Below are positions 34,211 to 45,156 of a stretch of 64,000 bases of DNA, one piece after another (position 1 is the stretch's first letter; each line of letters opens with the position of its first letter). Source of the stretch: an uncultured Planctomycetota bacterium (lineage in GTDB: Bacteria; Planctomycetota; Planctomycetia; Pirellulales; Thermoguttaceae); NCBI GenBank assembly GCA_900317365.1, contig ONGM01000058.1, positions 1-64,000 on the forward strand. Direction: 5' to 3'. Both the position numbers and the translations under genes were made by a program. The notes beneath the pieces are model-generated. The model had not been told where the DNA came from. It made no database searches and saw nothing but the letters and a program-made list of their open reading frames with translations.

Positions 34211-35992
34211 ATGGGCAATGAACTATATCAAATTATGCATCATAAGGTTAGCGAAATAATCTCCGATGTAAAAAACGGAAGAATTGGTCTTCCCGACCTC
34301 CAGCGACCATTTGTCTGGCAAGACAACAAGGTTCGCGATCTTCTGGATTCAATGTTTCGGGGATTTCCTATCGGCTATATTATGCTTTGGGAATCTCCTG
34401 AGGACTACGACCATACAAGCCATATTGGAAAAATCGACAAAACCTTTAACACTCCGAGAGATTTGGTTATCGACGGCCAACAGAGACTCACGGCTCTTTT
34501 GGCTGCGTTTGAAGGGATCGAAGTTAAGGACAAAAACTTCAAACTCCACAATATCAAGATTTCCTTCAATCCCCTTAGCGGGGATTTCAAAGTGTGGTCT
34601 CAAGCCTATGAAAAAAGTGTTGAATACGTCAGCGCTATCAGCGACGTCTTTGCCGCTGACAGGGAACACGAAGTCGCCAAATTCCGTAAGCGTTACATAA
34701 AAACGTTAAATGAAAGTCGCGAGAAGAACAGACAGCCTCTATTGACGGACGACGAAGAGAATACCATCGAGGAAAACATTAAAAAGCTACTGGATTTGAA
34801 AGACTATTTACTTCCCACGCTGCGAATCAAAGCAAATGCTGGTGAAGAAGACGTCGCGGAAATATTCGTGCGCGTCAATTCCGGTGGTCAGGATCTCGGG
34901 GAAAAGGATTTCATAGAGACGCTTCTCGCCGTGTTTGATAACGACGTGCACGAAAAGATCGACATGTTTTGCGAGGCGTCTCGTAGCCCTAATGATAAAA
35001 CTGCTTATAATCATATCATTCAAGTTGAGCCAGCGCACCTCATTCGAGTTACCGTCGGTTTGCGTTTTCATCGCGGCAGGCTTAAGTACGCTTATCAGCT
35101 TTTGCGCGGGAAAGACCTGAAAACCGGAATGATAGCGGACGACACAAGGGATAGCAATTTAAAAGCTTTTAAACAAAGTCTTGATGTTGCCACTAACCTT
35201 AACAACTGGCACGCTTATCTGAATCTTTTCTCTCAAGCAGGTTATATCACCGGCGATTTTGTGACCGCCAAAAACGGAGTGGTTTACTGTTATGTAATGT
35301 ACCTTATCGGCAAATACGAGTATAAGGTCAAAACTACGGAACTGAATCGAATCATCACAAAGTGGATTTACATGACAACCGTCACGTCTTTCTATTCGGG
35401 TTCCACTGAGTCCGAAGTAGAAAAGATGTTCGCTGATCTGCGAGATGTAAAAACGGCCGACGAATATGTGAAGTATCTGGACGACTTCATTAAAGGACGC
35501 TTTACAGACGACTACTTCAACGTAACGCTTCCTAATCAACTGATTACTTCTAGGACGTCCAGTCCAGCGTGGTACGGATACATCGCAGCCATTAACGTCC
35601 TTGGCTTTCCCATGTTATTCAGCGCCTCGATTCTGTCTAAATACCTTGTCCCCGGCGCAAGCGGCGCTAAGAGCGCTATTGATAAACATCACATCTTTCC
35701 GAAAAACTATCTACGGGAAAATGGATATAGCGACAATCGAGATCAGAACCAAGTGGCAAATTACACCTATATTGATTATGCCACAAACATCGCCATTTCT
35801 GACAAACCGCCGATGGAATATGTTGGCGAATATAGGGAAAAAATGGGAGAAGAAGAATATAAGCGAACCTGCGAAGAAAATGCGTTGCCATATGATTTTG
35901 AAAACATGGATTACCAACAGTTCCTTGAAGCTAGAAGAAAGCTAATGGCGGCGATTATCCGTAGAGGATACGAACGACTGTGCGTGTTATGA
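34211..35992 (+). CDS. DUF262 / HNH-type protein (GmrSD-like defence nuclease candidate)
   Basis: The 593-residue protein has an N-terminal DUF262 (ParB/Srx-like NTPase-nuclease) domain: LPDLQRPFVWQDNKVRDLLD (residues 28-47) and LVIDGQQRLTALLA (85-98). The C-terminus carries a DUF1524/HNH-like motif, DKHHIFPKNYLRENGYSDN, near residue 490. This is the layout of GmrSD-like type IV restriction proteins and other DUF262 phage-defence proteins, which cut modified DNA. Its codon choice is more AT-rich than the neighbours and it lies in an island with a dead transposase and a phage-type regulator, so recent transfer is likely. No Shine-Dalgarno sequence is seen before the ATG, and a stop lies in frame just upstream. 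Confidence 0.85.
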   Translation: MGNELYQIMHHKVSEIISDVKNGRIGLPDLQRPFVWQDNKVRDLLDSMFRGFPIGYIMLWESPEDYDHTSHIGKIDKTFNTPRDLVIDGQQRLTALLAAFEGIEVKDKNFKLHNIKISFNPLSGDFKVWSQAYEKSVEYVSAISDVFAADREHEVAKFRKRYIKTLNESREKNRQPLLTDDEENTIEENIKKLLDLKDYLLPTLRIKANAGEEDVAEIFVRVNSGGQDLGEKDFIETLLAVFDNDVHEKIDMFCEASRSPNDKTAYNHIIQVEPAHLIRVTVGLRFHRGRLKYAYQLLRGKDLKTGMIADDTRDSNLKAFKQSLDVATNLNNWHAYLNLFSQAGYITGDFVTAKNGVVYCYVMYLIGKYEYKVKTTELNRIITKWIYMTTVTSFYSGSTESEVEKMFADLRDVKTADEYVKYLDDFIKGRFTDDYFNVTLPNQLITSRTSSPAWYGYIAAINVLGFPMLFSASILSKYLVPGASGAKSAIDKHHIFPKNYLRENGYSDNRDQNQVANYTYIDYATNIAISDKPPMEYVGEYREKMGEEEYKRTCEENALPYDFENMDYQQFLEARRKLMAAIIRRGYERLCVL

Positions 35993-37847: not shown

Positions 37848-38711
37848 ATGAACACTAATCAGACAAACGAAAACGCCAAGGCAGGCGACCCGCTCGAACT
37901 TGAAATCAACGGCGAAAAGGTAATCTTCCGCTACTGCCCGCCGGGGACGTTTCTCATGGGAAGTCCTAAAGACGAACAAGATCGATACGATCGAGAACTC
38001 CACCCTGAAAAGATAGAGATAATAATGTGTAACGGGGTCCTTTACGACGATGAAGCCCTACACGAAGTAACGTTGTCTCGCGGATTCTGGCTTTTGGAGA
38101 CGCCTGTAACGGAGGAACTATGGATTGCGGTAAAACATAGTCTTGTGGACTCCTATTCCGATGGTCATCAGCCCGACTGTCCCGTCACATGCGTGAGGTG
38201 GGTTGATTGCGCCGCGTTTATTGACGAATTAAACGCTTCTGGAATAGCTCCCTCGGGTATGAAGTTTGATTTTCCAACCGAAGCGGAATGGGAATACGCG
38301 TGCCGCGCGGGGACGTTGACGGCGTTCAACGCGGGAGAAGAATTGACCGAAGAAGACGCGAACTTTCAGAATTCTTGCGGTCCACGCCCTGTGCGCAGTT
38401 ATCCGCCAAACGCATGGGGGCTGTACGATATGCACGGCAACGTTGCGGAGTGGTGTAAAGATGGTCCCGACGAGTATTGGGATTATTTCGTATACCCAGA
38501 AGGTCCGCCTTCAGCTATTATCGATCCCGAAGGTCAGACAAGCGACCAGTTCCGCGTTCTGCGCGGCGGCAGTTGGAATTATGAAGCCGTCGGCAACGGG
38601 CATTGCCGCTCAGCTAGTCGAGCCTTCCTAGAATCGAACGCCCCTCTGCGCGGCGCTTCCTATCACGTTGGATTCCGACTCGTACTCAGGTCGACGGAGC
38701 GAGCTGGATGA
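37848..38711 (+). CDS. FGE/SUMF1-domain protein (copy A, full length)
   Basis: A 287-residue protein with the formylglycine-generating-enzyme fold: PGTFLMGSPKDEQDRYDREL near residue 33, FDFPTEAEWEYACRAG near 142, AWGLYDMHGNVAEWCKDG near 188 and FRVLRGGSWNYEA near 238. In true FGE this fold oxidises a sulfatase cysteine; many homologues, including variable binding proteins with a C-type-lectin fold, do not. No signal peptide is present, so the protein is probably cytosolic, in an operon with the Sel1 protein. Its 3' part from 38331 is repeated at 40233. Codons 260-269 (38625-38654) differ completely from the second copy. Confidence 0.85.
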   Translation: MNTNQTNENAKAGDPLELEINGEKVIFRYCPPGTFLMGSPKDEQDRYDRELHPEKIEIIMCNGVLYDDEALHEVTLSRGFWLLETPVTEELWIAVKHSLVDSYSDGHQPDCPVTCVRWVDCAAFIDELNASGIAPSGMKFDFPTEAEWEYACRAGTLTAFNAGEELTEEDANFQNSCGPRPVRSYPPNAWGLYDMHGNVAEWCKDGPDEYWDYFVYPEGPPSAIIDPEGQTSDQFRVLRGGSWNYEAVGNGHCRSASRAFLESNAPLRGASYHVGFRLVLRSTERAG

Positions 38712-38903
38712 ATAATTTTGACGGGGAAACGTAAAGCGGCGATTACCGCTTGCGCTTTGATCGAGCGGGCGGCGCGGCTTCCCCCTATCGTGGCGAGCTT
38801 CGCGCGATAAAAATTCGGCGACCTTTGATTCGGAGAGTGTTTTGACCGCTCGATAAAGGATCAAGTGGGACGCTTTGATCGACGTTGTCCGCAGGTTAAA
38901 GCC
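38331..38903 (+). repeat. large direct repeat, copy A (FGE 3' half plus flank)
   Basis: This segment covers codons from about 162 of the FGE-like gene, its stop and some 190 bases of non-coding flank. It matches 40233-40802 closely on the same strand, in both coding and non-coding parts, apart from scattered substitutions and one fully divergent block (38625-38654). The non-coding part contains a nested palindrome (AAAGCGG...CCGCTTGCGCTTT) and the short dispersed motif at 38798-38820. The match ends at AAAGCC. Confidence 0.85.
38798..38820 (+). repeat. short dispersed repeat next to FGE-like genes
   Basis: The core CTTCGCGCGATAAAA then ATTCGGCG recurs at 40697-40719, with variants at 38915-38936 and 44110-44131. 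All four lie just beyond the 3' ends of FGE-like genes. The variants at 38915 and 44110 also share about 70 further bases of weak similarity (GGCGnTTCGGnTATT and a GATTnCAC block). Confidence 0.6.
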
Positions 38904-39028
38904 CTTCGAGTGCGCTTCGCGCGATAAACTACGGCGATTCGGTTATTTGCAGCCACTCGGCGAACAACCAACAGGAGTGACGATTACACGCGCGATGAGA
39001 CCTTAGTTTGTTTGAATGAGGATTTGTC
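38904..39028. other. spacer carrying a second member of the dispersed repeat
   Basis: Together with the 3' flank of copy A (38712-38903) this makes a 317-bp gap without a gene. It holds the variant repeat CTTCGCGCGATAAAC at 38915. No clear promoter was found for the following gene. Confidence 0.5.
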
Positions 39029-40222
39029 ATGGAAACATTATTCACTGTCATCGCCGTAATATTCTGGCTCGGCGGTTTTGCCCTTCTATTTTCACGATGG
39101 ATTTTGATCTTTTGGCGAGGACTTGCGCTCCTATTCGGTATGTTCTCAAAATGGAGGGACTTTGAAATTGAAAAGGCGCCCGACCGCAGAGTTATCGTCA
39201 AGAAATACGTCGGTTCAAGCAAAAAGGTCGTCGTTCCTAAAGGCGCGACCGTAATAGGGGAGGGAGCTTTTGCCGGAAAAGCGTCGATCGAAAGTATTTT
39301 CTTCGCGGCTGGACTGAAAACAATTGAGACGGGCGCTTTTTTCCAATGCGTCAATTTGACGCAGGTTCGTTTTTCCGAAGGACTTGAAACGATCGAAGCC
39401 TACGCATTTAGCCATAGTCCGATTCGAGAAGTCGTTTTGCCTTCCAGTTTGAAGAAGGTTGAATCCGGAGCTTTTTCTATTTGTTTCGCTTTCGCCGTTT
39501 CGGAAGGAAACGCGAATTACGTCGCGCAGGACGGCGTTTTATTCACTCGCGATATGTCGACTCTCGTACGTTATCCCGGAGGGAGCGACTCGAAACAATA
39601 TAGCGTTCCCGAATGCGTTAAACGAATAGCAGAGGAGTCGTTTTCGAATTCCCTCTTCTTGAGGAGGTTGGAATTGCCAGATAACCTCGAAGAAATCGAC
39701 GACCACGCATTTTTAGCTTGTCGTCTTGATGAAATAACGATTCCTGCAAGCGTTACGAAAATCGGAGTCGGCGCGTTTACGCGAACGGGGAAAATTGTCG
39801 TCTCGGAAGGAAACCAGAAATACTTCTCAACGGACGACGGCGTTCTTTTCAATTTCGATTTGACGCTCGTTAGTTATCCTGGCGGTCGCGGCGCGCGAGA
39901 TTATCGCGTTCCCGACGATACTGAGCATATCGAGGAAAAAGCTTTTTATTACGCTATGACGCTGGAAAACGTTATCTTGCCCGAATCGCTCAAATCGATC
40001 GGCAACCAAGCCTTCTGCGGTTGCAAAGAACTAACGAGCGTCTATGTGCCGAATAACGTTAAAGACGCGGTTATCAGTAATCCTACGGCGTTTGAGAATT
40101 GTCCAAAATTAACAAACGTCAAAACGTTTAATCCTATTGAAGGCAGACCGTTTCGCGCCAGAATCTTTATAAACGACAACGGAGAGTTGAAGGAAAAGGG
40201 TGATCTCGGTTTTTTTCCATAA
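39029..40222 (+). CDS. BspA-type leucine-rich-repeat protein
   Basis: The 397-residue protein has an N-terminal membrane helix pair (LFTVIAVIFWLGGFALLFSR, then WILIFWRGLALLFG). About eight LRR_5 (BspA/Treponema pallidum type) repeats follow, with the pattern LKTIETGAFFQC, LETIEAYAFSHS, LEEIDDHAFLAC and LKSIGNQAFCGC. These right-handed solenoids usually bind proteins and are often surface exposed. The gene is inserted precisely between the two copies of the large FGE repeat. Its stop TAA shares its last base with the ATG of the truncated FGE fragment (TAATG), so the two may be translationally coupled. Confidence 0.85.
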   Translation: METLFTVIAVIFWLGGFALLFSRWILIFWRGLALLFGMFSKWRDFEIEKAPDRRVIVKKYVGSSKKVVVPKGATVIGEGAFAGKASIESIFFAAGLKTIETGAFFQCVNLTQVRFSEGLETIEAYAFSHSPIREVVLPSSLKKVESGAFSICFAFAVSEGNANYVAQDGVLFTRDMSTLVRYPGGSDSKQYSVPECVKRIAEESFSNSLFLRRLELPDNLEEIDDHAFLACRLDEITIPASVTKIGVGAFTRTGKIVVSEGNQKYFSTDDGVLFNFDLTLVSYPGGRGARDYRVPDDTEHIEEKAFYYAMTLENVILPESLKSIGNQAFCGCKELTSVYVPNNVKDAVISNPTAFENCPKLTNVKTFNPIEGRPFRARIFINDNGELKEKGDLGFFP

Positions 40223-40611
40223 TGTCTGAACACGTGGGAGAAGAATTGACCAAAGAAGACGCGAACTTTCAAACTCTTTGCGGTCCACACCCAGTACGCA
40301 GTTATCCGCCAAACGCCTGGGGGCTGTACGATATGCACGGCAACTTTGCGGAGTGGTGTAAAGATGGACCCGACGAGTATTGGGATTATTTCGTGTACCC
40401 AGAAGGTCCGCCTTCTGCTATTATCGATCCCGTAGGTCAGACAAGCAACCAGTTCCGCGTTCTGCGCGGCGGCAGTTGGAACTATGAAGCCGTCGGTTCA
40501 GGGCATTGCCGCTCAGCTAGTCGAGCCTACGACGACTCCCTGCACTCCGCTTCCGCTTCCTATCACGTTGGATTCCAACTCGCACTCAGATCGGCGGAGC
40601 GAGCTGGCTGA
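40222..40611 (+). pseudogene. FGE/SUMF1 C-terminal fragment (copy B)
   Basis: The 129-residue frame holds only the C-terminal half of an FGE-like protein (AWGLYDMHGNFAEWCKDG, FRVLRGGSWNYEA, CRSASRAY), nearly identical to copy A from about residue 163 on. The N-terminal half of the fold is missing. It could be a dead remnant, a silent cassette, or a short product coupled to the LRR gene. Codons 103-111 (40528-40554) are TAC GAC GAC TCC CTG CAC TCC GCT TCC and share nothing with the ten codons in copy A. Confidence 0.75.
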
Positions 40612-40802
40612 ATGATTTTAACGGGGAAACGTAAAGCGGCGATTACCGCTTGCGCTTTTATCGGGCGGGCGGCGCGGCTTCCCCTATCGAGGCGAGCTTC
40701 GCGCGATAAAAATTCGGCGACCTTTGATTCGGAGTGTGTTTTGACCGCTCGATAAAGGCGCTAGTGGGACGCTTTGATCGACGACGTCCACAGGCTAAAG
40801 CC
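40233..40802 (+). repeat. large direct repeat, copy B
   Basis: Second copy of the segment at 38331-38903, covering the FGE fragment and about 190 bases downstream. The flank keeps the same nested palindrome and dispersed motif (40697-40719). Similarity stops at AAAGCC (40797-40802), the same point as in copy A. The remaining bases to 40907 hold no gene. Confidence 0.85.
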
Positions 40803-44232: not shown

Positions 44233-45156
44233 TTATCTCGTTTCCTGCGACGAATCGACGATCGCCAGTCGGAACCCGTGATTGTATCCGCGATAGGTCG
44301 GAAGGTTGCGCTCGCGATACGCAGATCGACAACTTCGGGCGTCGTAGAGCCACGATCCGCCTCGGAAAATACGATTCCCGCCTGACGTCGATCCCAGCGG
44401 ATCAATCTTGGCGTCGTCGCTTTGATAGTAATCGTACCCGAATCGGTCGGCGGTCCATTCCCAGACGTTACCGTGCATATCGTAGAGTCCCCAGGCGTTC
44501 GGCAAGTAACTTCTCACAGGCGCCGAATGATCGAGACGCTTTCCTTTGACGTCGGTTCCGTATGGCGATTCCCCGTCGCAGTTCGCTTTATCGCCGTTCA
44601 AAGATTCGCCGAAATTATAAGGCGTCGTCGTTCCGGCGCGGCATGCGTACTCCCACTGCGCCTCGGTCGGCAAGGCAAATTTGTAGCCGTTCGGCAAATC
44701 CTTGGCGTATTCGCGATTCAACGTTTCAATGAACGCGCAACAGTCATCCCAACTGACCTGCTCGACGGGCAACTGATTCGAACCGGTATGACGACTCGGA
44801 TTCTCGCCGGTAATCGCAGTCCACAATTCTTGCGTCGTCTCCGTTTCCGCGATCCAGAACCCGCGCGTGAAAGTAACCTCGTGCTGAACCTCGTCGGAAT
44901 ATCGATCCGCTTCCGTCTCCGGGCTACCCATAATGAACTTTCCCGCCGGCGCCCAATGGAACGGGGTCGGAACGCCAGCGAGATCCAGTTGAAGAGTTTC
45001 GCCAGCCTGACGCTCGACGTCTTGCGCGTTTGCACGAACGCCACCTAAAGCGACGCTTAACAAAATACATAAAAGAAAGGTCCAAAACGCCGTCGTTTCG
45101 CTCATTATCGAATTAACGTCGTAGGAACGCGCCTTTGCTATGTTCAACATTTTCAT
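44233..45156 (-). CDS. secreted FGE/SUMF1-domain protein
   Basis: A 307-residue protein with an N-terminal export signal (AFWTFLLCILLSVALGGVRA, then NAQ) preceded by a 20-residue polar stretch, so an internal ATG at 45105 is an alternative start. The FGE domain shows APAGKFIMGSPETEADRYSD, YKFALPTEAQWEYACRAG, WGLYDMHGNVWEWTADRFG and FRGGSWLYDARSCRSAYRE. It is a distant paralogue of the copies at 37848 and 40222, on the opposite strand and exported. Whether it is a true formylglycine generator is not clear; no sulfatase is in the window. Confidence 0.88.
   Translation of the reverse strand: MKMLNIAKARSYDVNSIMSETTAFWTFLLCILLSVALGGVRANAQDVERQAGETLQLDLAGVPTPFHWAPAGKFIMGSPETEADRYSDEVQHEVTFTRGFWIAETETTQELWTAITGENPSRHTGSNQLPVEQVSWDDCCAFIETLNREYAKDLPNGYKFALPTEAQWEYACRAGTTTPYNFGESLNGDKANCDGESPYGTDVKGKRLDHSAPVRSYLPNAWGLYDMHGNVWEWTADRFGYDYYQSDDAKIDPLGSTSGGNRIFRGGSWLYDARSCRSAYRERNLPTYRGYNHGFRLAIVDSSQETR

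Follow-up and report, generated by a model that had tools for sequence, protein, structure and literature searches.

A duplicated FGE-domain gene with a divergent C-terminal block in a planctomycete genome, and its relation to diversity-generating retroelements of the same genus

The closest described system to the locus analysed here is the diversity-generating retroelement (DGR) of Treponema denticola with its variable protein TvpA, in which, by the account of Le Coq and Ghosh (2011) relayed in PMC4891356, an HRDC accessory gene lies beside the reverse transcriptase (RT) and several targets lie far from the RT. Isolates of this species that lack the DGR core (RT and template repeat, TR) retain target genes, some of them truncated or over-mutated (PMC4891356). 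Conflict systems diversified by DGRs have also been described in multicellular bacteria such as Thiohalocapsa PB-PSB1, where FGE-type targets, remote ones that match a template in trans among them, are associated with conflict domains (PMC10907252; see also PMC7159879).

The DNA considered in this study, hereafter the window, is a stretch of 64,000 nucleotides on contig C258 of a 4.23-Mb assembly (89% complete, 299 contigs) from a member of the Thermoguttaceae (Planctomycetota) whose genus relatives are ruminant-gut MAGs. It contains a full-length gene of the FGE family (copy A) and, beyond a leucine-rich-repeat (LRR) gene, a second copy of its 3' half (copy B). The features on which the analysis draws are as follows.

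37848–38711, plus strand: copy A, a full-length FGE-sulfatase-domain protein of 287 aa, TvpA-like (PF03781, E=4e-34)
38562–38681, plus strand: variable-repeat equivalent of copy A (RGGSW...GFRL), 40 codons (TRs of loci L102, L103 and L104 as reference)
38625–38654, plus strand: divergent block of copy A, FLESNAPLRG, residues 260–269, in a low-confidence loop preceding the last two strands
38712–38903, plus strand: 3' non-coding flank of copy A, common to copy B (178/192 nt identical)
38775–38816 and 38882–38903: pieces of a dispersed extragenic palindromic repeat, within the 3' flank of copy A
39029–40222, plus strand: BspA-type leucine-rich-repeat protein of 397 aa, between copies A and B (PF13306, E=2e-49)
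40222–40611, plus strand: copy B, the C-terminal half of an FGE domain in a 129-aa ORF (PF03781 positions 152–254)
40465–40581, plus strand: variable-repeat equivalent of copy B, 39 codons (genus TRs as reference)
40528–40554, plus strand: divergent block of copy B, YDDSLHSAS, forming a tandem GCTTCC together with the next codons
40612–40802, plus strand: 3' non-coding flank of copy B, from repeat finding and alignment
44233–45156, minus strand: a further FGE paralogue of 307 aa with a canonical 33-residue C-terminal region (RGGSWLYDARSCRSAYRERNLPTYRGYNHGFRL), from sequence comparison

The likeness to T. denticola extends to both the protein and the elements found in the genus, since the window protein has the FGE-type C-type-lectin fold with TvpA as its best solved match, and the genus DGRs have an HRDC gene next to the RT and remote targets. 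Whereas the T. denticola targets are mostly spirochaete lipoproteins, however, the genome studied here belongs to a planctomycete and encodes about 40 FGE domains, of which some are fused to caspases, and the window copies, unlike the T. denticola DGR targets, are longer than the template. In common with the Thiohalocapsa PB-PSB1 conflict systems, Peptidase_C14-FGE fusions are encoded in the window's genome and a caspase-TIR-FGE fusion lies near a related DGR RT, although the window gene encodes a lone FGE domain and neighbours Sel1 and LRR genes. The window protein also shares its domain family and fold with the formylglycine-generating enzyme/SUMF1 (PF03781), but its aligned segment NYEAVGNGHCRSAS lacks the two cysteines found in the catalytic segment of the human enzyme, which we take to be the catalytic cysteines of true FGEs; the single Cys in NYEAVGNGHCRSAS is that of the conserved CRSA motif. 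As this pair of cysteines is missing, the window protein is unlikely to be an active FGE enzyme.

Fold of the protein and extent of the duplication

The best solved relative of the copy A protein is T. denticola variable protein 1 (TvpA, 2y3c), which was retrieved by phmmer with E=1.9e-14 and was also the best Foldseek match to an AlphaFold2 model of the protein (E=8.5e-14, TM 0.64–0.66). The model, built on 16 sequences, has a mean pLDDT of 71 and a pTM of 0.79 and is weak precisely in the loops of interest, with the block residues 260–269 falling within a stretch of pLDDT <50 ahead of the final two strands. The PF03781 match, the TvpA match and the position of the block together identify a C-type-lectin/FGE fold with a C-terminal variable part, so that the FGE/C-type-lectin-like fold proposed from the letters of the window now has a DGR variable protein as its nearest solved relative.

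Repeat finding delimits the duplication to 38329–38903 and 40232–40802, with 93% identity across coding and non-coding DNA; it resolves into three segment pairs of 93% each (38329–38625/40232–40528, 38654–38784/40554–40684 and 38782–38903/40681–40802), and about 190 nt of 3' non-coding DNA belong to it. An initial sequence-only reading of the window had described the copies as nearly identical in their coding and non-coding parts, and both this description and its coordinates were right. With the block set aside, the two copies differ by 39 mismatches in 544 aligned positions (7% substitution) and by one single-base indel in ~545 sites, and the coding part outside the block gives a dN of 0.055 and a dS of 0.161 for copy B against copy A (dN/dS 0.34). 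The longest identical run, of 44 nt, does not exceed expectation (P=0.75 under shuffling), and the comparison therefore gives no sign of recent gene conversion and no visible tract. The same reading had proposed a search of the genome for further copies of the repeat, and no other full-length copy was found in the whole 89%-complete assembly.

The LRR stop codon and the copy B start codon overlap (TAATG), which makes translational coupling possible, and copy B may be produced in this way together with the LRR protein. Only the C-terminal half of the domain is present in copy B, which is more likely to be a translated remnant than a donor cassette. At its 3' edge (CCGCAGGTTAAAGCC) the A/B repeat falls in the dispersed extragenic palindromic repeat (TTGTCCGCAGGCTAAAGCCAGACGGCTTCCCCC...GCGCGCTTCGCGCGATAAA), which recurs at many intergenic sites and at several contig termini (also at L011, L021, L022, L023, L026 and L028–L030) and may have helped the duplication to occur. 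No Rfam match was obtained within the window. Directly 5' of the Sel1-FGE-LRR-FGE stretch, at 34211–35992, lies a GmrSD_N (DUF262-type) restriction-like gene.

Retroelements of the genus and their traces in the window's genome

A search for RTs in 60 relatives identified three same-genus RTs adjoining FGE sequence, in the genomes RGIG9010 (G015, water deer rectum), RGIG3054 (G010, goat rectum) and S32M_St_metabat_111 (G005). The G015 locus (L102) comprises an FGE target, an HRDC gene, an RT and a TR, and the G010 locus (L103) an FGE target, an RT and a TR; the G005 locus (L104) is a short contig carrying an HRDC gene, an RT and a template, with its targets on other contigs. Pfam support for the HRDC accessory gene was obtained in G015 and G005 only. 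The templates are rich in AAC and AAT codons and encode RGGSWNNNAKNCRSANRNNNxPxNRNNNYGFRL or near it, with the consensus RGG(S/G)WNNNAKNCRSANRN(N/A)N(T/N/D)P(E/A)NRNNN(Y/N)GFRL. For the two target variable repeats (VRs) of G010, one of which lies on a separate contig, comparison with the TR gave differences at 18 of 34 adenines and at none of the 92 remaining sites; the G015 and G005 targets differ from theirs at 16–22 of 32–33 adenines and at 1–12 of 91–97 other sites. An RT, a TR and VRs that differ from the TR mainly at adenines were thus found in all three genomes, and by every criterion that can be tested in sequence these same-genus elements are DGRs.

Our literature search found no paper linking Thermoguttaceae with retroelements, and these elements extend the host range of TvpA-type DGRs to a genus of planctomycetes from the gut; similar FGE templates accompany related RTs in other phyla as well. 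In two of the loci the TR overlaps the 3' end of the RT ORF in a different frame (L102:8183-8311, and L103:4973-5098 on the minus strand), such that the tail of the RT is encoded by the template. Two further RTs were rejected as DGR RTs by inspection: that of G004 resembles a group II intron RT, and that of G013 (contig C278, L105:515-8000) immediately follows a series of CRISPR type III-like (RAMP/Cmr-like) genes.

Four FGE genes of the window's own genome, two on contig C105 (C105a and C105b), one on C269 and one on C291, were compared at 25 adenine sites and 66 never-adenine sites as defined by the three sister templates. The differences number 12/25 adenine sites against 1/66 others for C105a and C269, 22/25 against 3/66 for C105a and C105b, and 17/25 against 4/66 for C269 and C105b; pairs with C291 give a weaker contrast (14–23 of 25 against 8–10 of 66). 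Adenine-specific variation between VRs was accordingly found for the C105 and C269 targets and, more weakly, for C291. The upstream coding DNA of the C105 and C269 genes is just 84–92% identical, from which it follows that the non-adenine sites of the VRs have been homogenised while the adenine sites are hypervariable, a pattern that, on sequence grounds, marks mutagenic retrohoming from a single template. Across the remaining FGE paralogues of this genome, codons equivalent to AAY end in a pyrimidine at a frequency of 0.687 (0.538 expected) and encode K, E, Q, M or W at a frequency of 0.097 (0.198 expected), a weak remaining trace of AAY-derived codons.

No RT was detected in the 89%-complete assembly, either with the RVT_1 Pfam model or with a same-genus DGR RT as the query, and the absence of an RT from the window, as observed in the sequence-only reading, thus holds for the assembly as a whole. 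A 99-nt template query, deduced by hand from three or four targets, retrieved from this assembly only VRs (74–82%) and short chance matches. The search for a DGR RT and template that had been recommended therefore came out negative for the window's own assembly and positive for three genomes of its genus. Because the assembly breaks at FGE genes (C105, C269 and C291), the DGR core is perhaps merely unassembled; alternatively, it may have been lost. A genome in which adenine-rewritten targets are present while RT and template lie outside the assembly allows the study of targets after, or away from, their machinery.

The divergent block and its possible origins

Within the duplication, copy A reads TTC CTA GAA TCG AAC GCC CCT CTG CGC GGC (30 nt) where copy B reads TAC GAC GAC TCC CTG CAC TCC GCT TCC (27 nt), both in frame. 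The two blocks share at most 9/27 matches whatever the ungapped register (P ~6e-15 if the flank rate applied), and allowing gaps, to test for a succession of small indels, does not raise the score above that of shuffled sequences (P=0.23), confirming the earlier description of a fully divergent block with a length difference of one codon. A smaller difference of four bases (38594–38597, GGC AAC in copy A and GGT TCA in copy B) lies 28 nt 5' of the block. It had also been pointed out that eight of the nine block codons of copy B end in a pyrimidine; the count is correct but uninformative, with 6.75 such codons expected given the amino acids (copy A, 6/10 with 5.4 expected), and it was rejected as evidence of AAY-derived codons. 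The block of copy A has as its counterpart in the templates the second AAY cluster (R NNN x P x N R NNN) and falls within the variable-repeat zone of the genus DGR targets, so that its placement at a site where DGRs vary binding proteins, first made from the window by itself, finds support in the genus, and the position is, as judged by alignment, DGR-zone-like. In the first AAY cluster, copies A and B differ only at AAT/AAC and at GGC AAC/GGT TCA.

Adenine-confined differences at constant length were not found in the window pair. Its repeat equivalents span 40 and 39 codons against 33 in the genus templates (7 or 6 longer), and its synonymous non-adenine sites (CGC TCA GCT AGT CGA) differ from all templates, the corresponding codons of templates and marked targets being CGG or CGA; TCG, TCA or TCC; GCC or GCG; AAY; and CGG. 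Given the extra length and the lack of a template match, it is homology and position, and no signature, that speak for the pair having once been a DGR target. By these two measures the pair belongs to a gene family that includes DGR targets, but it lacks the DGR signature, and the sequences leave a DGR as the cause of this block unsupported.

The account that we favour, with modest confidence, is that of a duplicated, degenerate DGR-type target in which the block has been replaced in at least one copy. The pair would descend from a TvpA-like target family, and an old segmental duplication of the 3' half and 3' flank (dS about 0.16), possibly aided by the dispersed repeats, would have been followed by a period in which the copies lay outside the reach of the DGR, with no surviving template feeding either. 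The block would then have been replaced or rewritten in one copy or both, and further altered by minor indels and ordinary substitution, at a position where nearly any sequence is tolerated. The T. denticola targets that persist without RT and template, truncated or over-mutated, provide a direct precedent for such a pair. Counting against this account is the replacement of the whole block while the first variable cluster is nearly unchanged, a pattern that ordinary drift would not predict. The lack of an RT and a TR in the assembly, the extra length and template mismatch of the pair, and the unresolved place of the window gene within its clade of FGE domains also weigh against it. None of the same-genus matches that were read has the long C-terminus of the window pair, and the change in the block therefore cannot be polarised.

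An unlikely but serious competitor is ordinary surface-loop evolution through small indels and relaxed or diversifying selection, no mutation system having ever acted in this gene. The loop differs among FGE paralogues even where there is no clear trace of a DGR, the tandem GCTTCC in copy B exemplifies a small indel, and the dN/dS outside the block is compatible with such a history; however, in a repeat that otherwise shows 7% substitution and one single-base indel, a complete turnover limited to 30 nt calls for a strong local cause, and the gene belongs to a family that includes DGR targets. Replacement of the block through exchange with another FGE paralogue, by gene conversion or cassette recombination and with copy B as a potential donor, appears to us improbable. 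About 40 FGE domains could have served as partners, and a short conversion tract would produce just such an abrupt and full replacement between intact flanks, but neither block occurs elsewhere in the window's own assembly within 3 mismatches (though a donor might lie in the part that the assembly lacks), the same-genus C-terminus matches that were read have other lengths, and no tract of raised identity connects copies A and B. Silent donor copies carrying blocks found in an expressed gene were not seen in this genome, and the earlier suggestion that the truncated copy might serve as donor cassette fails on the uniqueness of both blocks, the absence of a conversion tract and the lack of further full-length copies.

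Active DGR variation, in which both copies are being rewritten now by an RT and template missing from the assembly, we consider very improbable, even though the block is in the right position, other FGE genes of this genome have been rewritten by a retroelement, and a small RT contig could well be absent from an 89%-complete, 299-contig assembly that is broken at FGE genes. Rewriting by a DGR preserves length and non-adenine bases and the block preserves neither; moreover, the flanking VR positions mismatch the template deduced from other targets, and 5' of the block copies A and B hardly differ at positions where DGR rewriting would be expected as well. The directed variation that had been suggested for the block is unsupported: its length changes, its non-adenine sites differ and no template matches it, and the assembly has neither RT nor template. 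Highly doubtful, too, is a second process in this lineage that swaps whole in-frame blocks of variable length in the variable regions of FGE proteins, which if true would allow DGR targets to escape a fixed template length. Under the favoured account of a degenerate duplicated target, the pair itself is a modest result.

The FGE family in the window's genome

The window's genome yields 42 FGE-sulfatase matches (about 40 FGE-fold domains), and each of its genus relatives has between 10 and 60 matches to the window protein. A tree computed with the variable region left out groups the window gene with other FGE domains of its own genome in a clade of 15 (support 91/93), which includes the marked targets C105a, C105b and C291a, but does not resolve its place inside this clade. 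The number of paralogues, together with several caspase fusions, suggests a large sensor repertoire. We infer that the role of the family is ligand binding and that in some paralogues the domain forms the sensor part of caspase-FGE conflict proteins.

Among the fusions, a 2258-aa ORF on contig C83 (L108:152-6925, minus strand) combines one N-terminal caspase (Peptidase_C14) with five FGE-sulfatase domains, and a 738-aa caspase-FGE protein is encoded on contig C105 (L109:1571-3784, minus strand). The FGE C-termini vary strongly, and from their domain composition the two proteins look like multi-sensor conflict proteins. In Thermoguttaceae RGIG3287, a caspase-TIR-FGE fusion target (L163:3088-5364) adjoins a related DGR RT, an arrangement that hints at a role as an immune sensor.
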